A stretch of 19,614 nucleotides of DNA from Opitutia bacterium UBA977 (lineage in GTDB: Bacteria; Verrucomicrobiota; Verrucomicrobiia; Opitutales; Coraliomargaritaceae). The notes below the pieces were generated by a model. That model was given only the letters and a program-made list of their open reading frames with translations, had not been told where the DNA came from and searched no databases. Made by a program: the position numbers and the translations under genes. Of this stretch, positions 5,105 through 9,094 are shown piece by piece. The DNA lies in assembly GCA_002292345.1 (NCBI GenBank), contig DBBT01000069.1:1898-21511 (forward strand). The letters are read 5' to 3'. Each line of letters opens with the position of its first letter. Position 1 is the first letter of the stretch.

Positions 5105-6553
5105 ATGCTTCTTAATATCTTCTATATCGCCATCGCGCTGCTCGCGCTGAGCTTCTGTATTTTTATCCACGAGCTCGGCCACTTTATCGCCGCTAAAAAG
5201 CGCGGCTTAATCGCCGACCGCTTTTCAATCGGCTTCGGCCCGCGCCTATTCGGCTGGAAATGGCGCGGCACCGACTTCCGCATCTCACTGCTACCGCTTG
5301 GCGGCTATGTCTCGCTACCTCAGCTCGCCGACATGGGCCGACTCGAAGGCGGCGAAGAAGACGAGTCCGAAGACCTCCCACCGATCTCTTATGCCGATAA
5401 GATGATCGTCGCCGTGATGGGCGCTGTGTTTAACATCATCTTGGCATTCTGCCTATCCCTCATCCTTTGGGGTGTCGGTCGCGACATTATTAAAACCACC
5501 GTAGTCGACGTCGCCCCGGAGCAAATTGTCAATTCCGCCGGCGAAATCGTGCCTGGTCCAGCCTTCGAAGCAGGCCTTCTCGCAGGCGACACCATCCTTG
5601 AAATTGATGACGAGCGGATCGGCGATTGGATGCAGCTACAAAATGCGGTGATGACCGGCACTGGTCGCAACGACGCAGGCATCCCCACCACCGAAGTCAC
5701 TGTTCTGCGTGGTGATAAAGAGCTCACCCTCACTGCTCACCCGGTGCTCGTCACCTCCGAAGACATCCGCACCCTCGGCGTGCAACCTGGTACCGATCTC
5801 GTCGTCAGCATGGTGCAAGAGAATATGCCCGCGTTCGAAGCAGGTATGCTGCCAGGCGACCAGCCTATTGCCCTCAATGGCGAGCCGATTACTTCCGCAG
5901 CTTTTTTGAGCGTTTATCTAAAGAATCATCAAGGCGGCAGTATCGACGTCACCCTCCTACGTGAAGGCCAAGAAGTCATCCTGCCGATCGAGCCAAGAAT
6001 CGCACCTAGTGAAGAATCTCCACGTTTTGGATTCGCCTACTACTACGAAGCCCAAACCGAGCGAGTGCACCGCAATCCATTCGAGCAGATCACCATCATG
6101 GCCAACACGATGAAGATGACACTCGTCGCGCTCGTCAGCCAGAAATCAGACGTCAAAGTGCGCAACATGAGTGGCCCGGTCGGCATTGTGCATGGTCTCA
6201 CTACGATGGCCCGCTATGGCTGGATCGACCTCGTTTGGTTCCTCGCATTGATCAACGTCAATCTCGCGATCTTCAACGTGCTACCGATCCCTGTGCTGGA
6301 TGGCGGCCACATGCTATTCGCCACGATCTCAAAAATCACCGGCCGTCCGCTGCCTCGTAGAATAATGGAAGGTGCGTATACCGCCTGCATCGTCATGCTA
6401 CTCTCCTTTGTGGTTTATGTCTCGTTCTTCGACGTCAAGCGCGTCGGCCAAGACATCGGCATCGGCCAAAACGACGAGGCAGAAACCGTCCAAGCCAAAG
6501 ACATCAGCAAAGAAGAACTAACCGCAGAGAACGCTGAGCAAATCAATGAGTAA
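5105..6553 (+). CDS. rseP: RseP-type site-2 membrane metalloprotease (M50B), two PDZ domains
   Basis: The family cleaves membrane-embedded substrates such as anti-sigma factors and remnant signal peptides. The zinc-binding HELGH (residues 22-26) lies in the first membrane segment, and the third zinc ligand is in the C-terminal LDGGH (Asp399 to His402) after NVLPIPV. Two PDZ-like regions lie between about residues 130 and 330: one with PAFEAGLLAGDTILEIDD, one with PAFEAGMLPGDQPIALNG. At 482 residues it is longer than E. coli RseP (450), largely because of a charged tail after the last membrane helix. The final residues (LTAENAEQ) are encoded by the left repeat flanking the GxxExxY gene, so this C-terminus may be rebuilt. 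It overlaps that gene by 8 bases. Confidence 0.95.
   Translation: MLLNIFYIAIALLALSFCIFIHELGHFIAAKKRGLIADRFSIGFGPRLFGWKWRGTDFRISLLPLGGYVSLPQLADMGRLEGGEEDESEDLPPISYADKMIVAVMGAVFNIILAFCLSLILWGVGRDIIKTTVVDVAPEQIVNSAGEIVPGPAFEAGLLAGDTILEIDDERIGDWMQLQNAVMTGTGRNDAGIPTTEVTVLRGDKELTLTAHPVLVTSEDIRTLGVQPGTDLVVSMVQENMPAFEAGMLPGDQPIALNGEPITSAAFLSVYLKNHQGGSIDVTLLREGQEVILPIEPRIAPSEESPRFGFAYYYEAQTERVHRNPFEQITIMANTMKMTLVALVSQKSDVKVRNMSGPVGIVHGLTTMARYGWIDLVWFLALINVNLAIFNVLPIPVLDGGHMLFATISKITGRPLPRRIMEGAYTACIVMLLSFVVYVSFFDVKRVGQDIGIGQNDEAETVQAKDISKEELTAENAEQINE
6519..6539 (+). repeat. Left inverted-repeat arm flanking the GxxExxY gene
   Basis: TAACCGCAGAGAACGCTGAGC matches the reverse complement of 6955-6984 at 20 of 21 positions, once one 9-nt unit (GACGCAGAG) present only in the right copy is gapped. 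The arm lies inside the last codons of rseP. Confidence 0.85.
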
Positions 6554-6923
6554 CTTAAGCGAACAAGTATTAGGTGCGGCAATCGATGTGCATACCGAGC
6601 TCGGGCCCGGACTACTGGAAAGCACATACGAACGTTGCCTCGCCCACGAACTATCTTTGCGAGGCATTCAGGGTATTCGCCAAAAGAAACAGCCGATCAC
6701 CTATAAAGGCTTGGAGTTAGACGAAGGCTACCGCCTCGATATTCTTGTCGAAAACCAAATCATCTTAGAGCTAAAAGTCGTCGATCAACTCAATAACATC
6801 CATACAGCCCAACTGATTACCTATTTAAAACTATCAGGTTGCACGCTTGGCTACTTACTGAATTTCAATGTCACAAAAATGAAAGACGGCATCAAACGAG
6901 TCGTCTATAATCACAAAGACTAG
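6546..6923 (+). CDS. GxxExxY family protein (PD-(D/E)xK nuclease-like fold)
   Basis: This 125-residue protein carries the name-giving motif G-LL-E-ST-Y at residues 22-28, preceded by AIDVHTELGPG. A nuclease-like core follows: RLDILVENQIILELK, with Asp65 and the E-x-K triad Glu75/Lys77, matching a PD-(D/E)xK arrangement. Members usually occur in several copies per genome; their biochemical role is not established. The gene overlaps rseP by 8 bases and interrupts an otherwise plausible rseP-ispG junction. It is bracketed by inverted copies of a TAACCGCAGAG-type repeat, as if carried on a small cassette. Family assignment is firm; nuclease activity is inference. Confidence 0.93.
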   Translation: MSNLSEQVLGAAIDVHTELGPGLLESTYERCLAHELSLRGIQGIRQKKQPITYKGLELDEGYRLDILVENQIILELKVVDQLNNIHTAQLITYLKLSGCTLGYLLNFNVTKMKDGIKRVVYNHKD

Positions 6924-6954
6924 AATTCATAATCACTGAGCCACATCATTCTAA

Positions 6955-6984
6955 GCTCCGCGTTCTCTGCGTCCTCTGCGGTTA
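6955..6984 (-). repeat. Right inverted-repeat arm flanking the GxxExxY gene
   Basis: Read on the minus strand this is TAACCGCAGAG, then GACGCAGAG, then AACGCGGAGC. It is the left arm (6519-6539) with one extra 9-nt unit and one substitution. It lies in the 98-bp spacer before ispG. Confidence 0.85.
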
Positions 6985-7021: not shown

Positions 7022-9094
7022 ATGACCACTCTCTCAAATCTCGATTACTGCGCATCGCGCTTTCAGGCGAAGCGACGCGATTCACGTGTCATCCACATCG
7101 GCAATGTTGCTGTCGGCGGCAACAACCCGATTCGCATTCAATCGATGACGACCACCAATACTCAAGACGTCGACGCCACCGTGGCGCAAACGCTCGCCTT
7201 GGCTGAAGCAGGCTGCGAGATCGTCCGTATCACAGCACCCAATAAAGCCGCGGCCAGAGCCCTCGGCGAAATCTCCAAGAAGCTTCGTGCCGCTAAGTGC
7301 GACGTGCCACTGGTCGCCGACATCCACTTCCTGCCGACCGCCGCAATGGAGGCCGCGCTACATGTTGAAAAAGTCCGCATCAACCCAGGCAACTACGCCG
7401 ACAAAAAGAAGTTCGCCGTACTCGAATATACCGACGCCGCCTATGCCGAAGAACTCGAGCGCCTGCACCAAGCGTTCTCGCCGATCGTTCTGCGCTGCAA
7501 AGAGCTTGGCCGCGCCATGCGCATCGGCACCAACCACGGTTCCCTCTCTGACCGACTCATGAATCGCTATGGTGACTCACCACTCGGCATGGTTGAAAGC
7601 GCACTCGAATTTATCCGTATCGCCGAGAGTCACAACTATCACGACATCTGCCTGTCGATGAAAGCGAGTAACCCAAAAGTTATGATCGAGGCTTACCGTC
7701 TGACCGCCGCACGTATGGCCGAAGAAGGTATGAACTACCCGCTGCACCTCGGCGTGACCGAAGCTGGCGACGGCGAAGACGCCCGCGTCAAAAGCGCGAT
7801 CGGTATTGGCGCACTGCTCAACGATGGTCTGGGCGATACCATCCGCGTCTCACTTACCGAAGATCCAATCTACGAAGTGCCCGTTGCCCGCGACCTCGCC
7901 GACAAAGCAATGGCGCTCTGGAACCAGCAGGCGGAGCTACCACTTTCGGCCGAAACCAAAGACAGCATTAACCCGTTCGACTTCAATCGCCGCAGCGCCC
8001 GCGTCATTGAGCTCGGCCCGAAATGTAGCATCGGCGGCGACGTCGTCCCCGCCGTGATGGTCAAAACACAGCACCCGATCAGCGCAACTGCAGAAATCAT
8101 CCAAGACGTTTGCCGAACCCAGAGCTCGCTCAAAGAAAGTAAGCTCGAAGGCCTCCAAGTCGAGATCAACAGCAGCGGCGACCTCACCGCATTTACTGGA
8201 CTACACGAAGCCCTGCATAGTGTGGTACAAGCCTTCGTACTCGAACTTTCGGACGCAGTCGACCTCACTGACCTCGAAGCATTCGAATGGCCTGAAGACG
8301 GCCTCGCCGGCATCACCCTGCTGCAACACATCGAAAAGGAAGACGCCTACTACGCGACCAACCTGCTACAGTTTTGCCGCCAAAAAGGTTTCAACTGCGC
8401 CATTGATTGCCAAGCTGACGCCCTGCGCGAGGAGATCGGCGTACAACTCGCCCCGATGGGCAGCGAGCGTCTAATTCTAACCAGTGGCGTTCGAGCTTGC
8501 TCGGGCTCTGCATCAGAATCGCCCAACCACCCCGTCGGCAGCTACCGTACCCTTGCCGAAGCTGCCCAAGCCTTCGTGCCGGACGCACCTATCTGGATAC
8601 GTAATACACTAACGAACACGCTTGCGCCGAAAGACTACTTTTCAGATCGCCTACTCGAAAGCAGCATTCTCAGCGGCGCCCTACTCTGCGATGGTATCGG
8701 CGACGCGATCAGCATCGAGACCGAACCACTCCTCGAAAAAGCCACCACGCTCGCTTATAATATTTTACAAGGCGCACGCGCACGCATCACCAAAACCGAA
8801 TTCGTCGCCTGCCCAAGCTGCGGTCGCACCCTATTTGATTTACAAAGTGTCACCCAAACCATTCGCGCACGGACCGACCACCTCAAAGGTGTTACCATCG
8901 CGATCATGGGCTGCATCGTTAATGGCCCTGGCGAAATGGCTGATGCTGACTTCGGCTATGTCGGTGGCGCCCCCGCCAAAATTAATCTCTACGTCGGCAA
9001 ACAATGCGTAAAGTATAACGTGCCCGCCGAAGAAGCCTTAGACCGTTTGATCGGTCTAATCAAAGAGCACGGCAAATGGGTCGAGCCGAGTTAA
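7022..9094 (+). CDS. ispG: 4-hydroxy-3-methylbut-2-en-1-yl diphosphate synthase (three-domain IspG)
   Basis: IspG reductively opens the MEcPP ring to HMBPP, the penultimate MEP-pathway step, with a [4Fe-4S] cluster. The N-terminal TIM-barrel part is clear (IQSMTTTNTQDVDATVAQ, RINPGNY, GTNHGSLSDR). The C-terminal cluster domain has CPSCGRTLFD (Cys597, Cys600) and GCIVNGPGEM (Cys631, Glu638), with the same seven-residue Cys-Glu spacing as E. coli. At 690 residues it is nearly twice the E. coli size. The extra 250 or so residues between the two domains match the central insert known in Chlamydia, Bacteroidetes and plants, so it is a natural long form rather than a fusion. It lies 98 bp past the GxxExxY gene. 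Confidence 0.97.
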   Translation: MTTLSNLDYCASRFQAKRRDSRVIHIGNVAVGGNNPIRIQSMTTTNTQDVDATVAQTLALAEAGCEIVRITAPNKAAARALGEISKKLRAAKCDVPLVADIHFLPTAAMEAALHVEKVRINPGNYADKKKFAVLEYTDAAYAEELERLHQAFSPIVLRCKELGRAMRIGTNHGSLSDRLMNRYGDSPLGMVESALEFIRIAESHNYHDICLSMKASNPKVMIEAYRLTAARMAEEGMNYPLHLGVTEAGDGEDARVKSAIGIGALLNDGLGDTIRVSLTEDPIYEVPVARDLADKAMALWNQQAELPLSAETKDSINPFDFNRRSARVIELGPKCSIGGDVVPAVMVKTQHPISATAEIIQDVCRTQSSLKESKLEGLQVEINSSGDLTAFTGLHEALHSVVQAFVLELSDAVDLTDLEAFEWPEDGLAGITLLQHIEKEDAYYATNLLQFCRQKGFNCAIDCQADALREEIGVQLAPMGSERLILTSGVRACSGSASESPNHPVGSYRTLAEAAQAFVPDAPIWIRNTLTNTLAPKDYFSDRLLESSILSGALLCDGIGDAISIETEPLLEKATTLAYNILQGARARITKTEFVACPSCGRTLFDLQSVTQTIRARTDHLKGVTIAIMGCIVNGPGEMADADFGYVGGAPAKINLYVGKQCVKYNVPAEEALDRLIGLIKEHGKWVEPS
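8484..8509 (+). repeat. 26-nt segment shared with the nadA upstream region
   Basis: This coding stretch matches 18465-18490 at 22 of 26 positions, including GTGGCGT and GAGCTTGCTC. The core CGAGC-TT-GCTCG is a palindrome. Here it encodes SGVRACSGS in the central insert of IspG. Confidence 0.4.

Follow-up and report, generated by a model that had tools for sequence, protein, structure and literature searches.

Two kinds of small bacterial element come closest to the one described here. REPIN/RAYT systems ('REPtron', TnpA-REP) pair short palindromic repeats with a dedicated enzyme for which co-evolution with the cognate repeat is reported, and they include gene-less inverted pairs (PMC8266576, PMC3116915). 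The RAYT is described as an HUH transposase, mostly single copy, whose own mobility is without support (PMC8266576). The second is the intervening sequence (IVS) of 23S rRNA. The Coxiella example, an S23 element, measures 428 nt, is bounded by 28-bp terminal inverted repeats, and is processed by RNase III (PMC4990558). Here we analyze a 19,614-nt stretch of contig DBBT01000069.1 of Opitutia bacterium UBA977 (the window), in which two inverted arms of iterated words enclose a GxxExxY family gene between rseP and ispG. Comparison of this locus with relatives and other phyla indicates that such cassettes are very probably mobile, and we favor, with some confidence, the prediction that the GxxExxY nuclease itself drives their mobility through the word arrays.

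The protein encoded in the cassette clearly belongs to the GxxExxY family (TIGR04256/PF13366), whose models name the protein only. With RAYT systems, the cassette shares a repeat class tied to an enzyme clade (an association between sequences) and gene-less inverted pairs. Unlike RAYTs, GxxExxY is predicted to be Cas4/RecB-like, is multicopy, is enclosed by the arms, and comes without an HUH (Y1) transposase. With the 23S rRNA IVS carrying S23p (~430 nt; PMC4990558), it has in common its size, terminal inverted repeats, and a single small open reading frame (ORF), but its cargo is GxxExxY and its iterated-word arms lie at protein-gene junctions, here between rseP and ispG and not in rRNA. Like miniature inverted-repeat transposable elements (MITEs) and insertion sequences, it has inverted-repeat ends, element-bounded copies, and deletion derivatives. 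However, its ends are tandem words that vary by protein clade, it lacks a transposase, no target duplication was resolved, and at some loci the terminal inverted repeats typical of insertion sequences are replaced by everted pairs. Reuse of the site before alaS is compatible with a homing endonuclease gene, for which spread to unrelated junctions would be atypical. Compared with Cas4/RecB-type nucleases (SSO0001, Pcal_0546, LHK-Exo) and archaeal Hjc, GxxExxY is a stand-alone 125-aa protein in a repeat-bounded unit (no search for partners was made). The cassette is therefore distinct from RAYT systems in its enzyme, from the IVS in its location, and from insertion sequences in lacking a transposase, while it works partly like RAYT systems and the IVS.

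Inverted word arrays enclose GxxExxY genes

The left arm (6519..6539, forward strand) consists of two units, CGCAGAG/CGCTGAG, at 9-nt spacing with the outer end TAACC, and reads TAACCGCAGAGAACGCTGAGC. The right arm (6955..6984, reverse strand) contains three inverted units of the left-arm word with the outer end GGTTA; its reverse complement is TAACCGCAGAGGACGCAGAGAACGCGGAGC. The first-pass annotation had described the arms as matching apart from one substitution and an extra 9-nt unit on the right, which proved exact. With up to two mismatches allowed, AACCGCAGAGNACGCWGAG matched only the two arms in the window (200 shuffles gave a mean of 0), and the exact 11-mer TAACCGCAGAG occurred only in these arms in the 2.43-Mb host assembly, where the reversed control pattern occurred once. 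As the inverted-repeat score of 17 was reached by 3 of 2827 random window pairs with the same spacing, the window copy is only moderately unusual by itself, and the case rests on recurrence around homologues. That recurrence, described below, ruled out a chance inverted repeat.

The only ORF of annotated size between the arms (6546..6923, forward strand, 125 aa, intact) matched PF13366 (PDDEXK_3; E 3.7e-43, 147.1 bits, cut-off 22) and TIGR04256 (E 1.2e-44, 151.4 bits, cut-off 35), in agreement with the earlier view that the arms enclose exactly one gene, of the GxxExxY family. PF13366 was the only family found in this ORF at E ≤1e-3, with no HUH (Y1) transposase, and neither the ORF list nor the family search revealed a transposase or reverse transcriptase in the window cassette.

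Each GxxExxY gene was scored by comparing the 150 nt before it with the 170 nt after it and taking the best inverted match (G and L numbers are our handles for genomes and loci). Among 77 loci of relatives (77 of 86 table rows, the rest being short matches or flanks), the median score was 22, compared to 10 in 1313 nearby windows of the same spacing; 59 of the 77 exceeded the control 95th percentile (15) and 39 the 99th (21.9). In genome records from at least a dozen phyla by title, 63 of 79 loci exceeded the 95th percentile (18) and 55 the 99th (20) of 755 controls; the eightieth locus, L239, was too short. Twelve of these 80 records lack the label metagenome-assembled genome in their titles: 11 were scored, all at 19 or above, and the twelfth is L239. 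Thus, repeats flank most GxxExxY copies tested, as the first-pass annotation had proposed to check. Five loci were examined from eight plasmid-collection records, of which four scored 23-28 and one scored 11. In L384, one of the four, the pair is everted by eye.

Direction was assessed at 67 loci of relatives and 75 of other phyla. Among those above threshold, 42 pairs in relatives pointed inward, 8 were everted (3 of them near ties), and 2 were undecided; the corresponding numbers in other phyla were 52, 6, and 3. The proposition that arms invariably point inward was rejected. Everted best pairs occur at L038, L039, L047, L054, L189, L190, L211, L216, L248, and other loci.

In each arm, a 7-nt word is repeated two to four times with gaps of 1-3 nt (period 8, 9, or 10 nt), as in TTAACCGCAGAG-GACGCAGAG-AACGCGGAG. 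For 49 cassettes of relatives with an intact ORF and clear arms, length ranged from 414 to 634 bp (median 469), the start codon (picked by rule) fell within the left arm in 22, and the stop lay a median of 4 nt from the right arm. In the arm listings, inter-word spacers were often unequal between the two arms while the words agreed, indicating that the word is conserved rather than perfect pairing. Cassettes also have a preferred orientation. With neighbor strands taken from the longest open frames rather than annotation (73 and 74 loci with enough flank), the gene lay on the strand of the upstream gene at 53 of 58 decided loci (53:5) and on that of the downstream gene at 45 of 57 (other phyla). 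This bias suggests that the GxxExxY gene needs read-through.

Word class follows the protein clade

We grouped words by their last letters into RAG, RAT, RAA, TTAAT, and CTTAA classes. The regular expressions were chosen after the arms had been viewed, and only the host-phylum test came after they were fixed. On a quick tree of 188 stop-free proteins with full flanks, many of them orthologues at shared sites, the 144 word labels required 10 changes, while 1000 label shuffles, uncorrected for kinship, required at least 46 (mean 53.5). Clade I spans phyla; at its loci in other phyla (75 of the 80 wide loci were counted), 61 of 75 words were RAG, 14 were unlabelled, and no other class was present. 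The host-phylum test used 54 of 60 loci, the other six being already in the first set. In the EKIYEN/EKPYEN clade, counted over the host's phylum, 23 of 27 words were RAT and 4 were unlabelled. Since the six copies in the two-contig assembly G010 carry several different words, the word belongs to the element, not the host.

GxxExxY is a predicted nuclease under purifying selection

Residues D65, E75, K77, Q89, and Y93 (D65 / E75-x-K77 / Q89-xxx-Y93) were invariant in the 46 sequences of alignment A3, as expected if the protein has the PD-(D/E)xK-like core that was recognized at first pass. A fold model is compatible with PD-(D/E)XK catalytic residues, and the predicted fold is Cas4-like, which makes GxxExxY a putative small Cas4/RecB-type PD-(D/E)XK nuclease. 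No PDB entry was found by sequence at E values up to 1. PF13366 was found in 24 of 38 genomes, the host included, with at most 9 matches per genome, and of 387 genomes sampled from the host's phylum, 226 matched a GxxExxY query. Sixteen pairs were tried for the ratio of nonsynonymous to synonymous substitution rates (dN/dS), of which 2 were of unequal length, 3 saturated, and 1 without differences. In the five pairs with measurable dS (>0.05) the ratio was 0.06-0.17, and a nearly identical pair gave 0.54 on 3 differences. As judged from these sequences, GxxExxY ORFs are under purifying selection.

Cassettes are variably present at gene junctions and are exchanged

Presence, absence, and ectopic copies all point to mobility. 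By coordinates, the rseP-ispG cassette was present in 5 of 34 ispG-bearing genomes, four in the host's genus and one in another genus of the family. Of 30 ispG junctions, 20 were readable (the other ten lacked AACCGCAGAG) and 5 of these 20 contained the cassette; the junction is therefore cassette-free in most relatives read, which the first-pass annotation had suggested checking. On contig C58 of the host genome (G000), a cassette occupies a junction that was read in ten other congeners (G001's contig was left out): in nine, the stop of the upstream gene and the start of the downstream gene overlap, and G004 retains a solo arm. A cassette separates radA from an FAD gene in Bacteroides finegoldii; these genes are 13 nt apart in Parabacteroides distasonis. 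Between fabD and fabG, Sphingomonas parapaucimobilis has a cassette, and S. paeninsulae has a short gap followed by a fabG-like frame. Contig C92 of G031 carries two 95% identical cassettes 2.3 kb apart whose homology ends at the arms, and the match between a G010 cassette and a G004 cassette is confined to the sequence between the arms.

We found alaS in 35 of 38 genomes; by coordinates, it is preceded by GxxExxY in 12 and by S23 in 3. The gene names leuB, gatA, gatB, and alaS at relatives' junctions were read from sequence, and an alaS-like query was also used. Seventeen alaS junctions lacked GxxExxY: three had S23, in G021 and G032 the gene between the paired arms was deleted or absent, G014 and G018 had arm-like remnants, and G012, G015, G019, G022, and G025 had short, arm-free junctions; the remainder had a different neighbor (G024 was not classed). 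The junction upstream of alaS (L257-L286) is thus common to GxxExxY cassettes with different words, S23 cassettes, remnants, and short arm-free junctions.

At the leuB-alaS site, the words of eleven species fall into four or five types, as labelled by hand. Flanks of G000 and G007 are 94.6 and 97.3% identical while the gene is 69% identical; between G000 and G005, the flanks are 94.3 and 91.7% identical and the gene 97.3%. This disagreement between element and flank similarity indicates that cassettes have been exchanged at one site. Other same-site comparisons gave excess similarity of the cassette: the ORFs of G006 and G009 are identical over 345 nt with flank bins of 86-96%, and the window cassette is 99% identical among G000, G007, and G009 with flank bins of 88-100%, mostly 92-97%. 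For six pairs, the excess over flanks had a binomial P of 4e-4 to 2e-16, with flank divergences rounded by hand. Replacement was limited to the cassette plus ~60-100 bp. In the same-site pairs L022/L057 and L013/L015, the cassettes were no more alike than the flanks. A second flank search, with L065, gave mostly partial matches.

Together with the arms in both locus sets and the patchy rseP-ispG occupancy, these data uphold the earlier description of the locus as a compact mobile cassette that lacks a transposase and carries terminal repeats of its own. The alternative offered with it, that the cassette is domesticated, was not supported: cassettes are exchanged, and two of the four GxxExxY copies in the host genome (G000:C6 and G000:C27; L034, L035) are frameshifted, through decay or assembly error.

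Two 98% identical cassettes of G005, L041 and L062, lie within a longer shared unit whose outer parts in L041 resemble inverted ATATACTG(C/G)CGCGCATCAT, perhaps a nested element. Separately, the cassette-free rseP-ispG junctions L089, L091, L093, and L098 (G006, G005, G004, and G002) contain copies of another repeat, TAGCGAGCGGGTTTA...CCCGCG, and that of G008 (L094) contains GGCAGAATAATTA-type repeats.

Arms also occur without the gene

A strict generic arm pattern matched 570 times in the 38 genomes, compared to 52 matches of the reversed pattern (304 and 26 without the repeat-rich G031). G031 (3.4 Mb) alone has 266 strict matches against 26 for the control, a large expansion. In the 13 genomes listed in full, the host included, 23 of 144 strict arms lay beside a GxxExxY gene, 30 were in gene-less inverted pairs 52-202 bp apart, and 91 were single; the pattern detects only 15 of the 44 GxxExxY loci in these genomes. 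Pattern arms were rejected as an exclusive mark of GxxExxY, 121 of 144 being elsewhere. In 14 of 15 fetched stretches, the predicted fold pairs the arm with an inverted partner; in L377 a partner was not visible. Gene-less hairpins are as expected of miniature derivatives.

At the level of genomes, strict arms were present in all 24 that have PF13366 and in 4 of the 14 that lack it (Fisher p 2e-6); the genomes lacking it are on the whole smaller. The first-pass annotation had regarded repeats scattered without relation to GxxExxY genes as fatal to its proposal. Scatter away from the gene, with many gene-less hairpins, is indeed what we find, but the relation to GxxExxY holds between genomes.

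Arms without GxxExxY in the host genome are at G000:C78:3672, C78:5280, and G000:C7:9181 (L377-L379). Those on C7 and at C78:5280 resemble gene-less hairpins, and that at C78:3672 is single.

S23 genes are a second cargo

Genes for S23, a four-helix-bundle protein (23S_rRNA_IVP, PF05635), were present in 23 of 38 genomes, and 25 of 29 S23 loci had inverted arms above the control 95th percentile of 15, with other words such as AGAAGTTAGGAGTTAG. Among 27 S23 loci, no decided neighbor was on the opposite strand (upstream gene: 18 same strand, 0 opposite). S23 and GxxExxY cassettes use one site, before alaS, where S23 is found in three species. The Coxiella IVS fits the picture of an S23 cassette. 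Arm arrays are visible at the relatives' PF05635 loci L147-L176, with words unlike those of GxxExxY cassettes.

A nuclease that may move its own gene

A model that accommodates most of our data is that the window contains a single representative of a widespread selfish cassette, ~470 bp long and organized as arm, GxxExxY gene, and inverted arm, that would insert at operon gene junctions, with its gene probably read through from the upstream gene. GxxExxY would recognize word arrays of its own clade, whether these are iterated sites in duplex DNA or extruded as a hairpin, and cut at or near them. Host recombination would then perform the joining step, copying the cassette to homologous or new sites. 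Such cutting and copying would explain ectopic copies, cassette replacement at one junction, and gene-less hairpins that keep their arms. We lowered our confidence in the role of the nuclease slightly because everted pairs were counted.

Several observations weigh against this model. Arms did not exceed the 95th control percentile at 18 of the relatives' 77 loci and at 16 of the 79 from other phyla, and three longer homologues (L072, L074, and L077) scored 9. Where a pair is everted, two separate miniature repeats may lie next to the gene and contribute their near ends, and of the 144 strict-pattern arms, 121 have no GxxExxY gene next to them. The VREC clade is mixed (15 RAA, 6 RAG, and 6 unlabelled of 27). 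The exchange data come largely from draft and partly from metagenome-assembled genomes, in which chimeric joins at near-identical flanks are possible. A target-site duplication was not resolved: the sequence next to filled and empty sites also differs, and even for L033, whose empty site is clean, the neighboring 10-30 nt are not the same. Foldseek gave no match at E ≤0.001 (best 1.5e-3), and a predicted fold in common with Cas4 is not proof of activity. Word binding and cutting by GxxExxY are predictions from sequence.

Many of these points would be expected if the arms were MITE- or repetitive extragenic palindrome (REP)-like miniature repeats moved by an unlinked transposase, with the gene carried along or merely adjacent. 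Arms without a gene, everted pairs that look like two separate miniature repeats flanking a gene, the unrelated S23 family between the same kind of arms, and a unit that encodes no transposase all fit such a passenger. A single mover would not, however, make word class track the GxxExxY clade while G010 has several words around six copies, and arms are scarce in gene-free genomes, though these are on the whole smaller. We regard this explanation as unlikely.

More doubtful still is an RNA-level, IVS-like element, in which the arm stem in the operon transcript would be trimmed by RNase III and spread would be reverse-transcribed or RNA-guided. The sense-strand bias of both cargoes (53:5 for GxxExxY, 18:0 for S23), the folding of gene-less arm pairs as long hairpins, and the size, repeats, and RNase III processing of the Coxiella IVS (PMC4990558) speak for it. 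However, a need for read-through would produce the same bias, the modeled protein fold resembles that of a DNA nuclease, spacers that often differ between arms make pairing an unlikely conserved feature, and the unit has no reverse transcriptase. A vertically inherited accessory gene with regulatory hairpins, its species differences made by whole-locus homologous recombination, agrees with the wide occurrence of the gene upstream of alaS in the family, with purifying selection, and with allele swapping (L022/L057 and L013/L015 lack excess cassette similarity), but is very improbable given ectopic copies with unrelated flanks, empty sites, replacement limited to the cassette and its immediate surroundings, unrelated cargo at one site, and gene-less hairpins.

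A broader proposal, which we offer tentatively and which may well not hold, is that GxxExxY cassettes constitute a new class of mobile element, spread across bacteria, in which a Cas4/RecB-like nuclease would move its own gene through clade-specific inverted arrays of 7-nt words, inserting at operon junctions, overwriting rivals, and leaving hairpins; S23 genes, including the rRNA IVS, would be an unrelated, converged line of cargo competing for sites. The novelty would lie in this kind of enzyme occurring with ends of this structure; a passenger cassette would instead be a further, new form of miniature element. In the open papers searched (preprints and most subscription journals being outside the scope), flanking word arrays, mobility, and word-clade coupling of GxxExxY were undescribed. 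The model gives a testable function to a commonly annotated but unexplained protein family, and the cassettes may explain one class of short repeats dispersed between genes. It also suggests a chemistry of mobility in which transposase, integrase, and reverse transcriptase play no part, and word-clade coupling would provide many natural protein-site pairs. Finally, GxxExxY and S23 at one junction link the old puzzle of the 23S rRNA IVS to a wider set of elements.

Neighboring genes and further features

The neighbors agree with the first-pass placement of the gene between rseP and ispG. Upstream is an rseP-like M50/PDZ site-2 protease ORF (5105..6553, forward strand), within whose frame the left arm lies, supplying the final codons and stop; the stop (6551-6553) overlaps the GxxExxY start, whose ATG is at 6546. 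The rseP 3′ end differs in cassette-free congeners. Downstream, ispG (GcpE; 7022..9094, forward strand) is on the same strand as the cassette gene. Rfam gave zero matches in the window at gathering cut-offs, leaving a structured RNA or rRNA location unsupported, and one viral_contigs scan for a phage origin found no relative. On the right-arm side, 8 of the relatives' 77 loci have CATYCTAR in the 85 nt that follow the ORF, compared to ~0.002 expected per stretch.
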